NCBI RefSeq assembly: GCF_018070075.1
Contig: NZ_JAGPXE010000005.1
Location: 1 to 64,000 of the forward strand
From: Saccharopolyspora endophytica
GTDB lineage: Bacteria; Actinomycetota; Actinomycetes; Mycobacteriales; Pseudonocardiaceae
Direction: 5' to 3'
Length of the DNA stretch: 64,000 bases
A program made the translations under genes and the position numbers. Positions 9,900 to 16,141 of the stretch are shown here, one piece after another. The notes beneath the pieces were generated by a model. It was not told the DNA's origin, ran no database searches, and saw nothing but the letters and a program-made list of their open reading frames with translations. Position 1 is the first letter of the stretch; every line of letters begins with the position of its first letter.

Positions 9900-10367
9900 T
9901 CAGGCGAGTTCTTCGTCTGGGAGGTCGAGGTCCGTTGCTGCTGCGTGGAAGGCGTTGAGGCCGGTCAGCAGGGCTGTGCGGGTGCGCGGGGGCATGGCGT
10001 CGAGGACCTGCTTGAGGTCGGCTTGGCGTTCCCGCTGGAACTGGCGGAGGAGGCGGCGGCCGTCCCGGGAGAGCTGGAGCATGACCTCGCGCCGGTCGTC
10101 GGAGCCCGCGACGCGGTCGAGGAGGCCTGCGGCCTGGAGCCGGTCGCAGACGCGGCTCGTCACCGACGGGATCGAGCCCAGCTCGTCGGCGAGGCTCATG
10201 AGGTTGATCGAGCCGTGGCGGTCCACGACGACGAGCGCCCGCAGCTGCGACGGGGAGACCGTCGGCTTCATCCGCTCGGCGCTGCGTCCCCAGACGACCA
10301 TGAGAACCCCGATACCCGCTTCGAGGTCGTCGAGGTGTTCGCTGGACAGGGGATCGGGTTTGCGCAC
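9900..10367 (-). CDS. MarR-family transcriptional regulator
   Basis: A 155-residue winged-helix protein. The GTG at 10367 is chosen because GAGGAGG lies just upstream; the frame extends further but without a better start. The recognition part INLMSLADELGSIPSVTSRV and the wing SDDRREVML are typical of MarR regulators. It diverges from the SpoIIE-type phosphatase gene over a 116-base spacer and may control it. Its ligand and targets are not deducible. Confidence 0.82.
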   Translation of the reverse strand: MRKPDPLSSEHLDDLEAGIGVLMVVWGRSAERMKPTVSPSQLRALVVVDRHGSINLMSLADELGSIPSVTSRVCDRLQAAGLLDRVAGSDDRREVMLQLSRDGRRLLRQFQRERQADLKQVLDAMPPRTRTALLTGLNAFHAAATDLDLPDEELA

Positions 10368-10483
10368 CGGAGGATCCTCCTCGCCGGGTGTATCAAGTCC
10401 GCGCACTGCGATACCGGACGTATTCTGGCACGCCAGGAGCCGAGAACGTCCGCGGTTGAGCGGACTTGGGTGAAGCCGGAGAC

Positions 10484-11689
10484 ATGGTGACCGTCGCGAC
10501 ACGTCTGGATTCCCTCGACCGCGCGTTGCGGGCCGCGCCGGCTCACGAGCTGCCGGAAACGTTGCTGGAACTGCTGGGGAAGCACTTCGGGGTCGCGGGG
10601 CTGGAGATCTACCTGGCCGACCTGCGCCTCGCCGTCCTGGAACCGGTCATCGAGCCGGAAGCCCCCGGAATTCCGCTGGTGGCGACGTTGGAAGGACGCG
10701 TCTTCTGCGACCAGGTGTGCATCCAGCAGCCGCTCGACGACGAGGTCGCGCTGGTCCTGCCGATGACGGTGCGGGGCGACCGGTCGGGCGTCCTGTGGCT
10801 GCGGCTGCCGGAAGCTCCGGACGAGGCGGTGCGCGAAGAACTGGCCGTCGCGGCCGAACTCGTGGCGCACGCGATCGTGCTCGCCGAAGTGGCGACGGAC
10901 CGCTACCAGCGCGCACGACGACCGCAGCGCCTGACGCTCGCCGCCGAGATGCAGTGGCAGCTGCTGCCGGTGCGTTCCGTTGCCAGCGCCTCCTACCGGC
11001 TCGCCGGTCAGCTCGAACCCGCCTACGCGGTGCGGGGCGACAACTTCGACTGGGCCCAGGACCTGGACTCGCTCACCGTCGCGGTCACCAACGGGATGGG
11101 CGAGAGCACGACGGCGGCCGCGCTGACCACGCTGGCGATCACAGCGCTGCGCAACGCGCGGCGCAGCGGCGCCGACCTCGTCACCCAGGCCGCCCTCGCC
11201 GACCAGGCCGTGTGGGCGCACCACGCGGGGACGCAGCACATCTCGACGCTGCTGATGCGGATCGACCTCGCCACGGGTGAGGTCCGCGTCATCGACGCGG
11301 GCTCGCCGCGGCTGTGGCTCGTCCGCGAGAACAGCGTCGAGCGCGTCGAACTGGAGGCCCAGCTCCCGCTCGGCTTGGTCGACGGCACCGAGTACGACGA
11401 GCAGCACCTCCAGCTGGAGCCGGGCGATCGGCTCTTCGTGCTCACCGACGGGATCTACGACGCCGTGCTCGCCGATCGCGACTACAGCACCGCCTCGCTG
11501 CACCGGGCGTTGCAGACCAGCCGCCGACTGCCACCCACCGAGGCAGTGCGATCGCTGCTCAGCGACCTGCGGGCATTCCTCCAGGACAGCGACCTGGACG
11601 ACGACGCCGTGGCCGTGTGCATCGACTGGATCGGGCCTCGCGGAGACGAGCTCCCCGCCGCGGACGAGCGGAGCTGGATCCTGCTCTGA
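10484..11689 (+). CDS. PP2C/SpoIIE-type serine phosphatase with GAF-like N terminus
   Basis: 401 residues from the ATG at 10484 (CCGGAG upstream). Residues ~1-140 look like a GAF-type sensor. Residues ~150-395 are a SpoIIE/RsbU phosphatase, with GDNFDW, DAGSPRLWLV, TDGIYDA and DDDAVAVCI as metal and fold motifs. In the block usually written D-V-x-G-[HK]-G the sequence is TNGMGE, so one Asp metal ligand is Asn. Proteins of this class dephosphorylate STAS anti-sigma antagonists, and a STAS gene follows 185 bases downstream. No RsbW-type kinase is in the window. Confidence 0.8.
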   Translation: MVTVATRLDSLDRALRAAPAHELPETLLELLGKHFGVAGLEIYLADLRLAVLEPVIEPEAPGIPLVATLEGRVFCDQVCIQQPLDDEVALVLPMTVRGDRSGVLWLRLPEAPDEAVREELAVAAELVAHAIVLAEVATDRYQRARRPQRLTLAAEMQWQLLPVRSVASASYRLAGQLEPAYAVRGDNFDWAQDLDSLTVAVTNGMGESTTAAALTTLAITALRNARRSGADLVTQAALADQAVWAHHAGTQHISTLLMRIDLATGEVRVIDAGSPRLWLVRENSVERVELEAQLPLGLVDGTEYDEQHLQLEPGDRLFVLTDGIYDAVLADRDYSTASLHRALQTSRRLPPTEAVRSLLSDLRAFLQDSDLDDDAVAVCIDWIGPRGDELPAADERSWILL

Positions 11690-11701
11690 GCCTCGAATCG
11701 C

Positions 11702-11715
11702 TTGCCACGTGGCAC
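11702..11715. promoter_or_regulatory. TTGCCA-NN-YGGCA palindrome, copy 1
   Basis: TTGCCACGTGGCAC lies 13 bases after the phosphatase stop codon; TGCCACGTGGCA is a perfect 12-bp palindrome. It shares the left flank GAATnnGCTTGCCAC with two further copies at 11766 and 15958. The binding protein is unknown. Confidence 0.5.
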
Positions 11716-11765
11716 TGATCCGCTCCGGAGCGACGAGCCGGAGGCCCGGCGTTCTCCGCGAATTT

Positions 11766-11795
11766 GCTTGCCACGCGGCAAGCAACCGGTAAGAT
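11766..11795 (+). promoter_or_regulatory. Palindrome copy 2 overlapping a promoter for the STAS gene
   Basis: The palindrome GCTTGCC-ACGC-GGCAAGC (11766-11783) contains TTGCCA (11768-11773), which can serve as a -35 box. TAAGAT follows at 11790-11795 after a 16-base spacer and fits a -10 box. This would start transcription about 70-80 bases upstream of the STAS gene, with the palindrome as an overlapping operator. Confidence 0.5.
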
Positions 11796-11874
11796 CGCGT
11801 GGTTCAACTTGATCGGGTGAGGCCGCAACGGTCGGCCGGCGACGGATGCCGTCGACGCGAGGAAGGACGACAGG

Positions 11875-12318
11875 ATGTCCCTCGGGCAGCGGGTTGCCGG
11901 AGCTCTCGGCGACGAGGCTCCGCACGACACCACCGGCAAGGCACCTGCGGCGAGCGTTCAGGTGACGTTCCCGCGACCGGACGCGGTCGTCGCCACCGTC
12001 AGCGCACCCGTGGACCGCGACACGGTCGACCAGCTCGAGACCATGCTCTGGCCGCAGCCGACGTCCACGGCGCGGCTGGTCGTCGTGGACCTCACCGACG
12101 CGCACGTGCTCGACGTCCCGGACCTGCAACTGCTCACCCACGCCCACATGCTCGCCCACGCTCGCGGTGGGGCGCTGCACGTCGTCGCGGCCGGCGAGGC
12201 CGTCCTGGACGCGCTGCACGCCGCCGGGATCCGCGCCCTGCTGGAGTGCCACGCCACCGTCCAGGACGCCCTCGCCGCGACGACGAGCACCGACGCCGTC
12301 GGCGCGCCGAGGGGCTGA
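11875..12318 (+). CDS. STAS-domain protein (anti-sigma antagonist-like)
   Basis: A 147-residue protein with a STAS fold at about residues 25-130 (LVVVDLTDAHVLDVPDLQLL as the central strand-helix). In true antagonists the helix begins D-S-S-G or D-S-T-G with the phosphorylated serine; here it reads DVPD, so the regulatory Ser is missing. It may therefore work as a constitutive or non-phosphorylated partner of the upstream phosphatase system. The ATG at 11875 has GAGGAAGGACGACAGG upstream. Convergent with the peptidase-like gene. Confidence 0.75.
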   Translation: MSLGQRVAGALGDEAPHDTTGKAPAASVQVTFPRPDAVVATVSAPVDRDTVDQLETMLWPQPTSTARLVVVDLTDAHVLDVPDLQLLTHAHMLAHARGGALHVVAAGEAVLDALHAAGIRALLECHATVQDALAATTSTDAVGAPRG

Positions 12319-12326
12319 AGCGCTGG

Positions 12327-14354
12327 TCAGGGGTGCGGGTCCTGGGCGGCCTGCAGGCTGCCCGCGGGTAACCGCTCGGCTCCCCAGCTGCGCTCGATGT
12401 ACCCGGTGATCCGCGCGATGTCCTCGGCGGGAACGCGCTCCGGCTCCATCCGTTCGAGCGGGTCGAGGTGGAAGATGTAGAGGCGGGAGGCGAACTGGTC
12501 GAACGGCAGCGACGCCTCGCCGAAGCGCTCACCGCTTCCCGCCGTGGAGACCACGACGCCGTCGCCCCAGTCCTGCCCGCTGTCGTTGTTCGGGTTGAAG
12601 AAGTAGACCCGCATGACGTCCTGCGGATCCCGCGCGACCCGCAGGATCGTGATCGCGTGCCAGCCGACGTAGCGGGCCGCGCTGTCGGTGACCGCGACGC
12701 CCGCCGGCTGCGGGTGGATCAGCGGCCGGTCGCCGTTGTAGGCCGGGTGGTAGCTGGCGTGGAACTCGCGCAGGAACGTCTCGAGGTCGATCAGGTTGCC
12801 GGTCGCGACGTCGACGTTGATGCGGAACCCGCGGGCCGCCCACCAGCCGTGGAACTCGGGGTTGACCCACCGGTGCGGGTCGCCCGGCCGGTCGGCGCAG
12901 CGCCGCCCCATCTCGGCGTAGATCCGGTCCAGGTGGGGCACGACGAGCAGCGAGACCGGGTCGAGGTCCGTCGGCAGCGAGGTGGCGACTCCGGAGGCGA
13001 GGTCCTTCGACGAGATCGGCCGGCCCTCGAAGTGCATGATGACCTCGTCGTCGCGGGCCGCCCAGACCACCATCTGCAGCAGGTAGTCCGGGTCGTTGCT
13101 GGCCCACATCGACAGCGCGCGGGCCGACTGGCAGGTCGGGTTGTCGCCCTGTCCGACGCCCAGCGGCTGGCCCAGCATCGACAGCACTCCCGCCGTCAGC
13201 CGCGCCACCGAATCCGGTTCGTCGCCGAAGGCCAGCGTCAGCCGCTCTCGCGCGGCCGGGGAGAGGTCCAGGGCCAGCTGGCGCCAGAGCGCGGGTTCCA
13301 CGGGCGGCTCGTAGAGGATGCCGCGGTCGAGCAGCAGCGCCAGCCCGTAGACGCACTGCGCGGTCTGCGGGTGCACGGCCTTGTCGACCAGCTCGTGCAC
13401 CAGGTCGCTGTAGCGCAGCAGGCAGTTCCGGCCGGTGTCGGACAGGCCGAGCGCTTCACCGACGAGGTAGTCGCTGTCGGACATGACGAATCGCAGCAGC
13501 TCAGCGTGGTACGGCGACACCAGCCCGGTGTCGTGCATCGCCCGCGCGAACCCGGTGGCCTCGTACTGCAGGCCCCGCGTGTCCAGCGCCTCCAGCCGGG
13601 AGCGGAAGACGTCGATGCCCGGGTCGTCCCGGCAGGCCTCGGTGGTGCCGAACAGGCTGGTGATGAGCCGGTCGATGCCCTGCCCGGACGACGCGCCCAG
13701 GTCGATGTCGGGATCACCGCGGTAGATCGCGATCCGGGTGATCAGCGACTGCACCTGGTCGACCTGGATCGGGCGCTGGCGCAGGATCCGCCAGATCTCG
13801 TCGACCAGGTTGTCCAGCACGCTGTCGTAGCCGATCTCGTCGGCGAGGTGCCGGAACAGGTCCCGGATGAGGCGCGCGATCCGGCCCTGCCGGATGCGTT
13901 CGGCCTCGCTGGGCGAGGTGAACAGCAGCTCCAGGTTCATGGCCAGCACCTGGGTCAGGAACTGGCGGGCGTCCTCGGCGGAGATCGTCGGATGCGCGAA
14001 CTCCTCGCGGGCGACGGCGAGCATGCGCAGCTCGCTGGTCACCTCCATCACGACGGTGTCCACGTCGTCGCTGCGCAGCCCGGGGCCGACCAGCGACGGG
14101 ATCAGGATCTCCGGGGACGCCCAGTCGGTTCCCCGGAACAGCCCGGCTTCCTCCAGCGCCTGCGCCCTGGCCTGGACCGCCGCGGCGCCGCCCTGCTGCA
14201 GCAGCACTCGCCGCAGCGCCTCCAGCACCCGCCGCAGCTTCGCGTGCTTGCTGAAGTCGGGAGCCTCGGCCATGGCCTGGATCGCGCCGTCGAGCGAGGT
14301 CACGCGCTTGTCCAGCGTCGTGACCTGGCCCGAGGCGTCGGCGGTCGGTTTCAA
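12327..14354 (-). CDS. Uncharacterised 675-residue protein with papain-like Cys-His-Asn pattern
   Basis: Not recognised as a named family. Residues 1-390 are mostly alpha-helical and acidic. The C-terminal half has a pattern typical of papain-like cysteine peptidases or transglutaminase/amidase folds: Cys408 at a helix start (GDNPTCQSARALSMW), His566 before a strand (YVGWHAITILRV), then Asn587 on the next strand (VYFFNPNNDSGQDWGDG). There is no signal peptide and no clear membrane segment. It follows an ATP-grasp ligase gene by 39 bases on the same strand, so the two are probably one operon. An amide or isopeptide made by the ligase would be a natural substrate. The function is inference. Confidence 0.6.
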   Translation of the reverse strand: MKPTADASGQVTTLDKRVTSLDGAIQAMAEAPDFSKHAKLRRVLEALRRVLLQQGGAAAVQARAQALEEAGLFRGTDWASPEILIPSLVGPGLRSDDVDTVVMEVTSELRMLAVAREEFAHPTISAEDARQFLTQVLAMNLELLFTSPSEAERIRQGRIARLIRDLFRHLADEIGYDSVLDNLVDEIWRILRQRPIQVDQVQSLITRIAIYRGDPDIDLGASSGQGIDRLITSLFGTTEACRDDPGIDVFRSRLEALDTRGLQYEATGFARAMHDTGLVSPYHAELLRFVMSDSDYLVGEALGLSDTGRNCLLRYSDLVHELVDKAVHPQTAQCVYGLALLLDRGILYEPPVEPALWRQLALDLSPAARERLTLAFGDEPDSVARLTAGVLSMLGQPLGVGQGDNPTCQSARALSMWASNDPDYLLQMVVWAARDDEVIMHFEGRPISSKDLASGVATSLPTDLDPVSLLVVPHLDRIYAEMGRRCADRPGDPHRWVNPEFHGWWAARGFRINVDVATGNLIDLETFLREFHASYHPAYNGDRPLIHPQPAGVAVTDSAARYVGWHAITILRVARDPQDVMRVYFFNPNNDSGQDWGDGVVVSTAGSGERFGEASLPFDQFASRLYIFHLDPLERMEPERVPAEDIARITGYIERSWGAERLPAGSLQAAQDPHP

Positions 14355-14393
14355 CGGTGTCCCTCGGGTAGTTCTCCTGCGTCGACGGAGCCG

Positions 14394-15635
14394 TCAGACG
14401 TAGAAGTCGAGCTCTTCCTGCTGTTTCAGCAGTTCACGCATCCGGTAGGGGTCTTCGCCGAAGAAGTACAGCAAGCCCCAGTGGGTGCCGAACGCCGTCC
14501 TCTTGGTGACCGTTTCCTCCAGCGGTGCCGACAGGTCATGCGAATCATAGTAGTCGTCGTCCTCGGTCTGCTCCGGAATCTGCAGCTCGTTGACGACCCG
14601 GCGGCGCGGGTAGACGCCGAAGCACCCCGCGACCCCGGTCGCGTCGACCACCTCGCGCGGGAAGAACGCGTCGATCTCCTCCTCGGTGGTCTTCGGGTCG
14701 AACGCCAGGACCAGGCCCTGGTAGGCGTTGAACCCGTAGGCCCGTTCGAGCAGCTCGAAGACCTTGAACCCCGGCGGCCGGTAGGCGACCTCGCCGAAGT
14801 ACATCTCGCCGTCGCTGGTGACGAAGTACTCCGGGTGAACGAAGCCGAACTCGATGTCGAAGGTCTTGATGAGCTTCTCGATCTGCTCGGTGATCTGGGC
14901 TCGGTACCGCTCCAGCTCCGGGGTCGCGGGCACGAACACCGAGTAGCCGAGCGTGACGTACTCGGAGATGTTCAGGAACTTGATCTTGCCGTTGTGGATC
15001 CACGCCTCGACGGCGAACTCCCAGCCGTCGAGGTGCGATTCCATGAGGACCGGGAACTCGTCGTCGGGGATCTGGTCGATCTCGTCCGGGGTGCGGATGA
15101 CGCGGTGCCCGAGACACCCGGCCTTGTCGAAGGCCTTGACGTGGATCGGGTCGTTCGGGTCGCCGTCGAGCTTGAGCAGCGTCTGGTTGACGCGCTTGAG
15201 GAAGCGGACCACGTCGTCCCGGTCGTGGGCCTCCTCGAAGATCCCGACCCGGATGCCGCCCAGCTGCGCGCGACGCTTCATCAGCGCCTTGTCGCGCAGC
15301 AGCATGGACTGGCCGAGCAGGCGCGGGTTGTCCAGCAGGACCGAGTTGATCGCTCCGGCCCACTCCACGGTCTCCTCGAACAGCGGGATCGCGACGTCGA
15401 CGCCCATCTCCTGGAGGGTTTCGGAGATCTCCATCGAGCGGTCGTTGAGCCGCTCGAAGTTCCACGGCACGTAGGGGATGTCGTGCTCGACGCAGTACTT
15501 CTCGGCCCAGTCCGGGGCGACGACGACGTACCTGCGGTCGAAGCGGTCGAGAGCTTCCACGGCGTTGAGGCTCCAGCCGAGGAGAGCTACGTACCCCTTG
15601 TCCGAATTCTTGGCGACCGGTTCGAGCTGTGGCAT
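14394..15635 (-). CDS. ATP-grasp family ligase
   Basis: A 413-residue ATP-grasp enzyme of the carboxylate-amine/thiol ligase type, related in layout to carbamoyl-phosphate synthase and BL00235-like ligases. An N-terminal pre-ATP-grasp region (~1-110) is followed by the ATP-grasp core with LLKLDGDP/HVKAFDKAG (Lys167), LMESHLDGWEFAVEAW (Glu199, Glu210) and the metal site YFGEVAYRPPG (Glu282, Arg286). Such enzymes join a carboxylate to an amine through an acyl phosphate. The ATG at 15635 has GGAGGAAAG upstream. First gene of an operon with the peptidase-like protein. Confidence 0.75.
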   Translation of the reverse strand: MPQLEPVAKNSDKGYVALLGWSLNAVEALDRFDRRYVVVAPDWAEKYCVEHDIPYVPWNFERLNDRSMEISETLQEMGVDVAIPLFEETVEWAGAINSVLLDNPRLLGQSMLLRDKALMKRRAQLGGIRVGIFEEAHDRDDVVRFLKRVNQTLLKLDGDPNDPIHVKAFDKAGCLGHRVIRTPDEIDQIPDDEFPVLMESHLDGWEFAVEAWIHNGKIKFLNISEYVTLGYSVFVPATPELERYRAQITEQIEKLIKTFDIEFGFVHPEYFVTSDGEMYFGEVAYRPPGFKVFELLERAYGFNAYQGLVLAFDPKTTEEEIDAFFPREVVDATGVAGCFGVYPRRRVVNELQIPEQTEDDDYYDSHDLSAPLEETVTKRTAFGTHWGLLYFFGEDPYRMRELLKQQEELDFYV

Positions 15636-16141
15636 GGGCCTTTCCTCCGTTTCGGCGAATTCAGTTCTCGACGACGTCGTGGGCGCGACCGCACCCGAAC
15701 TGCTCTTCCGCTCGCGTGGTGATGTGCTCGGTTGCGCCCTGGTCCTCGGCCTGGCGTCCTGACCAGCGGCAACGGTGGGCTCACACGGCAGTGGATCGGT
15801 GAGGGCTCGCTGGCGGGGCGGACGTGGTGCGGTGGATCGGCGATCGCATCAGATGCTCAGCTGGCTCGGAGATCCAGACTGACATGCGAAAATGCTTCCG
15901 CGGCAGGCGTCGGGTCGTGATCTTCGGCAGGCTACCACCATTTCCGCCGGAATTTGCTTGCCACATGGCAATCGTTTCGCTCGAACCCCCTTGACGCGGC
16001 CGCTCTGATGCGCCCGCTACCAGCGGAATCCCCCGGCGTGCGGGTTCTCGTGAAAATCAGGGTTCGCGCGCGGGTCGCGGCCGCGTCCGGTTTCGGCCCG
16101 ATCCGCGAGGATTCGGCGTTCGGCGGTGGTATACATGCCGA
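15636..16141. other. 506-base spacer without a gene
   Basis: No supported coding region is seen between the divergent ATP-grasp and methyltransferase genes. It contains the third TTGCCA palindrome (15958-15971), a ribosome site for the ATP-grasp gene at its left end, and otherwise GC-rich sequence of unknown role. The long leader (about 320 bases from palindrome to ATP-grasp start) may hold regulatory RNA structure, but none was recognised. Confidence 0.5.
15958..15971. promoter_or_regulatory. TTGCCA-NN-TGGCAA palindrome, copy 3
   Basis: TTGCCACATGGCAA has perfect 6-bp arms and the same left flank (GAATTTGCTTGCCAC) as copy 2. It lies in the spacer between the ATP-grasp/peptidase operon and the methyltransferase gene. 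Confidence 0.55.

Follow-up and report, generated by a model that had tools for sequence, protein, structure and literature searches.

Two adjacent genes on the minus strand occupy positions 12,327 to 15,635 of the window, the whole 64,000-nucleotide stretch of Saccharopolyspora endophytica DNA analysed here. The first encodes a probable ATP-grasp ligase of 413 amino acids (aa) and the second a 675-aa protein whose C-terminal half is likely to adopt a papain-like fold. An earlier note on this DNA had described such a pair, separated by 39 bases, and read it as a candidate system for forming and breaking an amide bond. The two genes are indeed found as minus-strand open reading frames (ORFs), arranged as follows.

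14394..15635, minus strand: gene for the probable ATP-grasp ligase, 413 aa, first of the pair (ORF, Pfam, PDB alignment)
14355..14393, minus strand: spacer between the two genes, 39 bases, with GAGGG ahead of a TTG start (sequence)
12327..14354, minus strand: gene for the putative papain-like protein, 675 aa, without significant family match (ORF, library searches)

The ligase gene starts with ATG preceded by GGAGGA, a good ribosome site, and the 675-aa gene starts with TTG a few bases downstream of GAGGG. Both ORFs are real, intact genes, because related copies of both are found at 80 loci. These are the best 80 loci among at least 558 relatives confirmed by a scan of the collection with the 675-aa protein, and they are close relatives; across them the 675-aa protein is 68-89% identical to that of the window and the ligase about 84-96%. 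Long plus-strand ORFs that overlap the pair are taken as the usual shadows of high-G+C DNA. The genome of the window contains one match to each protein. Genes for a SpoIIE phosphatase, a STAS protein and a MarR protein lie downstream of the pair (window 9900-12318), and SpoIIE and MarR genes are also found within about 6 kb of it at five Saccharopolyspora loci. The pair appears settled in this genome because the third-position G+C of the two genes (0.959 and 0.935) is near that of 11 neighbours (0.816-0.952) and because the SpoIIE/MarR setting recurs in the genus. A recent transfer into the genome was rejected on the same two grounds.

The pairing of the two genes is fixed and extends across two phyla, in actinomycetes and gammaproteobacteria, with a patchy spread. 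At all 80 loci the ligase gene lies directly upstream of the 675-aa gene, including one where it is cut by a contig end (L039) and one where only residues 148-413 are matched in the best piece (L067), and the spacer measures 12-113 bases in 82 of 82 rows. Presence and absence were tested in whole genomes because the 80 loci are close relatives. The samples comprised the class of the window and, in addition, the phylum and the family of G198, the genome of a Marinobacter locus (L077). In the class, 5 of 296 genomes have the 675-aa gene, and exactly these 5 have the ligase; the phylum of G198 shows the same agreement, with both genes in the same 7 of 299 genomes. Within the family, the ligase is found in 33 of 61 genomes and the 675-aa gene in the same 33 and in G781, which has no ligase and retains the 675-aa gene only as two overlapping pieces, a remnant at G781:C1:434837-435446. 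If the genomes were independent, the chance of such overlap would be 5.5e-11 in the class, 2.5e-14 in the phylum and 1.8e-16 in the family. Altogether 42 of the 653 sampled genomes hold both genes, 610 neither and one (G781) remnants of the 675-aa gene alone, counting once the three genomes that fall in two samples (G198, G337 and G373) and taking both gene searches to cover the same genomes, as the genomes listed for each suggest; negatives are those listed. An intact ligase without an intact 675-aa gene, or the reverse, occurs in none of the 653. Outside this set, an earlier sample of the phylum of the window, searched for the 675-aa gene alone, contained it in 2 of 198 genomes. The earlier note had proposed a neighbourhood survey for fixed pairing, and the pairing holds both at the 80 loci and in the genome counts.

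Adjacency is looser in the family of G198, where 46 ligase genes stand against 66 full 675-aa genes. With the 675-aa gene as reference, the ligase is upstream and co-directional in 25 cases, downstream in 3 and divergent in 5, and for the remaining 13 there is no 675-aa gene within 2 kb. Four of the 33 genomes hold both genes without any adjacent pair; in one of them, G824, no ligase lies between a malate:quinone oxidoreductase gene and the 675-aa gene, its place in other genomes, and a ligase copy is found at another site. The link between the two genes survives inverted order and separation. In a midpoint-rooted tree of the 675-aa protein the nearest row to that of the window is from Saccharopolyspora soli, and actinomycete rows stand among gammaproteobacterial ones; two rows that bear the label "Cyanophyceae" result from a name clash and belong to Rhodococcus. 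Because of the midpoint rooting and the mislabelled rows, the tree is not used to infer a direction of transfer. The tree and the conservation counts below use one match per locus, after removal of identical rows and of spans shorter than 550 residues for the 675-aa family (166 rows reduced to 138) or 340 residues for the ligase (151 reduced to 129). The pair is found in one of 72,556 plasmid records, a 1.83-Mb plasmid of Halomonas sp. PA16-9 (L084). A role in anti-phage defence was considered and rejected: PADLOC gives no match, the papain-like protein is in no phage record (the ligase was not searched there) and only one plasmid carries the pair. The 96 pattern matches obtained in viral contigs include no relative.

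The ligase is probably a distant member of the ATP-grasp superfamily, of the carboxylate-amine class. Its Pfam match to ATP-grasp_4 (25.5 bits, E=1.1e-05) is just below the curated cut-off of 27 bits, and the L-amino acid ligases 3vot (BL00235, E=0.0024) and 4wd3 (E=0.0054) give weak collinear PDB matches. Its membership is judged distant because a PDB search with a 20-sequence ligase profile returned no chain at E<=0.001. BL00235 aligns with residues 67-310 of the ligase, and Glu269, Glu282 and Arg286 stand opposite identical residues. Conserved acidic metal ligands and an arginine in the C-terminal subdomain are a trait of ATP-grasp enzymes. The ligase carries these residues, and K116, E199, E206, E269, E282 and R286 are kept in all 129 distinct sequences. 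The residues matching Glu269, Glu282 and Arg286 act on metal and phosphate in L-amino acid ligases, and by analogy Glu269 is assumed to be a metal ligand. The class that the earlier note had assigned is therefore consistent with the weak family matches and with the conserved E269, E282 and R286, of which the two glutamates map as follows.

14829..14831, minus strand: Glu269 codon, opposite the identical Glu of BL00235 (alignment; 129/129)
14790..14792, minus strand: Glu282 codon, in GEVAYRPPG, second presumed metal ligand (alignment; 129/129)

Judged from the alignments, the ligase is strikingly conserved. Mean column identity over the two phyla is 88%, and comparison of the actinomycete copies with four gammaproteobacterial ones gives a mean identity of 87% for the ligase and 69% for the 675-aa protein.

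The 675-aa protein has no match in Pfam, NCBIfam or PADLOC at E<=1 and a single weak one in PHROGs at E<=0.1 (E=0.058), none of which is significant; it had been described as belonging to no known family, and these libraries agree. A set of 27 family sequences, including that of the window, gives a few scattered weak matches (best Pfam E=0.011, best NCBIfam E=0.053), and none of the 27 matches a papain-like family profile of Pfam or NCBIfam at E<=1. Residues 408, 566 and 587 are cysteine, histidine and asparagine. All 138 distinct sequences of the family, even at identities as low as about 50%, keep Gln402 as well as these three residues, and no cysteine other than Cys408 is shared by all. In papain the active-site order is Gln, Cys, His, Asn, and the oxyanion-hole glutamine precedes the nucleophilic cysteine by the same six residues that separate Gln402 from Cys408. 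Gln402 is thus presumed, from its position, to be the fourth residue of a papain-type active site. The three residues picked out by the earlier note are present in papain-like order, which also agrees with the predicted structures, and their conservation in homologues, on which that note had staked its claim, is complete.

13149..13151, minus strand: Gln402 codon, presumed oxyanion-hole Gln (138/138)
13131..13133, minus strand: Cys408 codon, presumed nucleophile, helix N terminus (138/138 and models)
12657..12659, minus strand: His566 codon, on or just before a strand (138/138 and models)
12594..12596, minus strand: Asn587 codon, directly after strand 581-586 (138/138 and models)

AlphaFold2 models divide the protein into two parts. 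The full-length model (32 rows) has a predicted local distance difference test score (pLDDT) of 71.8; the C-terminal part modelled alone (81 rows) reaches a pLDDT of 77.9 and a predicted template-modelling score of 0.71.

13170..14318, minus strand: N-terminal all-helical region, residues 13-395, about 380 residues (AlphaFold2 full-length model)
12363..13373, minus strand: C-terminal part modelled alone, residues 328-664, putative papain-like core (AlphaFold2, Foldseek)

A papain-like core has its cysteine at the N terminus of a helix, its histidine on strand 2 and a polar residue on strand 3 (PMC10318531). The models reproduce this order, helix with Cys, strand with His, strand with Asn, as an order of elements only: Cys408 opens a helix that begins at residue 408 in the C-terminal model and at 409 in the full-length model, His566 lies on strand 562-575 in the former and just before strand 568-575 in the latter, and Asn587 directly follows strand 581-586. 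In a Foldseek search of the PDB with the C-terminal model, 49 of the best 50 of 315 matches are papain-like, as judged from their names, many of the 50 being chains of the same few proteins. They include calpains, cathepsins, dipeptidyl aminopeptidases, staphopain and a deubiquitinase, and the best is m-calpain (E=0.0064, probability 0.87). Among viral structure models, three of the first four matches to the C-terminal part are named papain-family proteases (best E=0.012). A papain-like fold of the C-terminal half is the best reading of the predicted structure and a likely one.

Taken together, the predicted activities and the pairing suggest, with about even confidence, an obligate amide module of two cytoplasmic enzymes, the papain-like one acting on the amide that the ligase makes. 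In the first step, by family resemblance, the ATP-grasp enzyme would convert a carboxylate to an acyl phosphate at the expense of ATP and couple it to an amine, which is the reaction of L-amino acid ligases. In the second, as fold and residues suggest, Cys408 would attack an amide through a thioester, helped by His566, Asn587 and Gln402, and the acyl group would pass to water, more probably, or to another amine. The two-way dependence of the genes makes the ligase product the most likely amide to be attacked. Hydrolysis and transfer both fit the data and are indistinguishable here. Given the strict co-presence, the product would be harmful unless turned over, or both steps would belong to one pathway. 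That actinomycetes and gammaproteobacteria carry closely similar pairs suggests a substrate present in both, a metabolite or a conserved protein, and not a peptide coded beside the pair; no target gene is conserved there, which makes a common metabolite or a protein encoded elsewhere probable. A fuller version of the proposal is offered tentatively, as a guess that would more often prove wrong than right: a protein or metabolite that the two groups have in common would be amidated reversibly by an obligate ATP-grasp/papain-like cycle not described before. The conjugation and deconjugation envisaged by the earlier note is supported in its catalytic set, fold and pairing; the undoing of the ligase's bond is plausible, and a two-step pathway fits equally well. 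The glutathionylspermidine-like product that it cited as a precedent is unlikely, because neither GSP_synth nor CHAP, the ligase and amidase families of glutathionylspermidine synthetase/amidase (Gss), is among the Pfam matches of either window protein at E<=1, and because the two phyla that carry the pair use different low-molecular thiols.

Several observations weigh against the proposal that the pair is an obligate amide module. A PDB search with a sequence profile of the 675-aa family found no papain. The full-length model matched chiefly helical-repeat proteins and a few papain-type chains in Foldseek, none at E<0.1, and the C-terminal model has no match at E<=0.001 and no TM-score above 0.33 among the matches listed; structure prediction, suggested earlier as a check, therefore agrees in the papain-like order and falls short in significance, and the best 50 matches are less independent than their number implies. 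The overlap probabilities given above are too small, because the sampled genomes are related. The assembly of G817, which belongs to the four genomes lacking an adjacent pair, is spread over many contigs, so that the separation there is unsure. A correlation in divergence between the two proteins (r=0.87 over 75 loci, giving 2775 locus pairs) speaks for the link, but any linked genes would be expected to show one, and the comparison had no control. The surplus of 66 papain-like genes over 46 ligases, with extra copies beside unlike genes, suggests that some may have other partners. Finally, the absence of any ligase without a papain-like gene is not what a mere eraser would require.

In the genome of the window the two genes are preceded by the following region.

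15636..16141, minus strand: upstream region of the pair, reaching a divergent methyltransferase gene (sequence)

When ORFs of at least 100 codons were compared among 23 stretches, only the two genes recurred in all 22 others and outside ORFs in at most 8, so a larger operon was rejected. Small ORFs within 600 bases upstream recur in at most 6 other loci of the 80 and those within 500 bases downstream in at most 4, all of them close relatives. A gene for a ribosomally synthesized and post-translationally modified peptide, or for another peptide substrate, beside the pair was rejected for this reason; no small peptide substrate gene had been seen originally either, and the wider comparison agrees. 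In 19 of 33 genomes of the Marinobacter family, counted by eye (loci L077, L156 and L157), the gene immediately upstream of the ligase codes for a malate:quinone oxidoreductase, an adjacency that could be simple synteny. G824 and G838 have a second ligase copy, which is next to another member of this oxidoreductase family with 36-38% identity to the first, and in G830 a gene of the family neighbours a ligase. A histone-deacetylase-family amidohydrolase gene (Pfam, L167 copy) adjoins a ligase or papain-like copy at L154, L167 and L173; the 33 genomes have 2-6 copies of this family each, and no case is built on it because only two, by eye, lie within 1 kb of either gene.

Extra papain-like copies have neighbours of other kinds. 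At three loci (L099:6025-11841, L141 and L168) a glutamate-cysteine-ligase-like gene (GCS2, E=4.8e-05), followed by an AstE/AspA-like gene that is below cut-off, is found at a distance of 0.1-2.6 kb from such a copy; the GCS2-like gene is possibly another ligase partner of such copies. Papain-like copies are also found within 1.6 kb of a fatty acid desaturase gene (L098, by Pfam; L144, L145 and L147, by the same cluster) and within about 2.1 kb of a gene for a 636-aa protein with ketoacyl synthase III domains (L141, L142 and L146; Pfam, L146 copy). Their remaining neighbours have no common theme.

Four other explanations can be set beside an obligate amide module, of which the first two are narrower versions that overlap with it. 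A possible, if somewhat unlikely, alternative is a two-step biosynthesis in which the ligase makes a short amide and a papain-like transacylase or transpeptidase moves the acyl group to a second amine, nothing being undone. Phytochelatin synthase and the BtrH family are acyl-moving papain-like precedents, and the strict two-way co-occurrence fits a pathway better than an optional eraser. Papain-like transacylases have moreover been predicted in gene neighbourhoods that also code for peptide ligases (PMC2922099). A pathway sits less well with the 23 stretches, in which no further gene of at least 100 codons is conserved beside the pair. Rather more doubtful is a protein modifier cycle in which a conserved protein would receive an amino acid or small tag from the ligase and lose it again through the papain-like enzyme, in the manner of RimK and RimB with other folds. 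RimK, an ATP-grasp ligase, and the counteracting peptidase RimB are an established pair of this kind (PMC12239564). The helical N-terminal region of the 675-aa protein, as modelled, could bind a protein; however, the neighbourhood contains no conserved gene for a target protein, and the nearest relatives of the ligase are L-amino acid ligases, whose substrates are free amino acids.

It is improbable that the 675-aa protein serves as a general peptidase of the cytoplasm, or as a scaffold without activity, and is adjacent to the ligase through shared regulation only. The fold matches are mostly general peptidases and copies without an adjacent ligase exist, but co-occurrence also holds in the four genomes without an adjacent pair, and the invariant catalytic set speaks against a scaffold. 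Very improbable indeed is synthesis by the ligase of an E-64-type cysteine-protease inhibitor, with the papain-like protein as target or resistant copy: in fungi a dioxygenase and an ATP-grasp enzyme build E-64 from fumarate (PMC12568646), the malate:quinone oxidoreductase gene adjoins the ligase in the 19 genomes mentioned and two loci, L144 and L168, have a TauD-type dioxygenase gene no more than 1.5 kb from an extra papain-like copy, but no such oxygenase recurs beside the pair itself in the 23 stretches, and a ligase with 88% mean column identity over two phyla is, in our judgement, very conserved for a warfare compound.

A literature search by titles and abstract openings found no paper naming the pair among the matches listed; the family has no name to search by. 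Known pairs that make and process amides, RimK-RimB and Gss, have revealed regulatory or protective chemistry. The present pair is complete, sharply conserved, patchy over two phyla and nameless in the libraries searched, so that the modified target can be asked for directly. If the reading is correct, the cycle would rest on a papain-like family that includes a helical domain and is not represented by any profile in those libraries, and the protein would add a family to a superfamily still being filled in.

Among known systems, RimK-RimB is by analogy the nearest in working principle, in another family, followed by the rlo operon and the fused glutathionylspermidine enzyme; the Pfam matches of the window proteins include no family of these three. 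RimK-RimB likewise consists of a cytoplasmic ATP-grasp ligase and a counteracting peptidase, co-transcribed in P. fluorescens, and RimB cleaves the glutamates that RimK adds to ribosomal protein S6 (PMC12239564, PMC4741518). In contrast to the papain-like candidate, RimB is a retropepsin-like aspartic peptidase, and no RimK-type or RimB family is among the Pfam matches of either window protein at E<=1. The RloA-RloB-RloC operon of Pseudomonas combines an ATP-grasp protein, a peptidase and a transglutaminase-fold protein, but its peptidase is secreted and aspartic and its transglutaminase domain inactive and membrane-bound (PMC12239564). The window pair differs in its complete papain-like set, and a signal peptide was not seen by eye, no predictor being used. 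A circularly permuted ATP-grasp/alpha-E/transglutaminase operon was reportedly described by Iyer et al. in 2009; none of these three domains is among the Pfam matches at E<=1. Gss joins an ATP-grasp amide maker to a papain-like (CHAP) amidase, which breaks the same bond that the synthetase makes. It is a single fused protein, in contrast to the two genes and large helical N-terminal region found here, and is listed among CHAP proteins (PMC10318531). The L-amino acid ligases BL00235 and RizA-type enzymes are the closest solved relatives of the ligase by sequence, and BL00235 shares the two glutamates and the arginine, but at E-values of just 0.0024 and 0.0054. No papain-like partner is known to accompany them. 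The folds closest to the C-terminal part are those of calpain, papain and dipeptidyl aminopeptidases, in which Gln, Cys, His and Asn follow one another as they do here; unlike them, this bacterial protein has no sequence-profile match to the superfamily and carries an extra helical part of about 380 residues. If the proposal holds, the pair would represent a further bacterial way, beside RimK-RimB and Gss, to make and undo an amide on demand.

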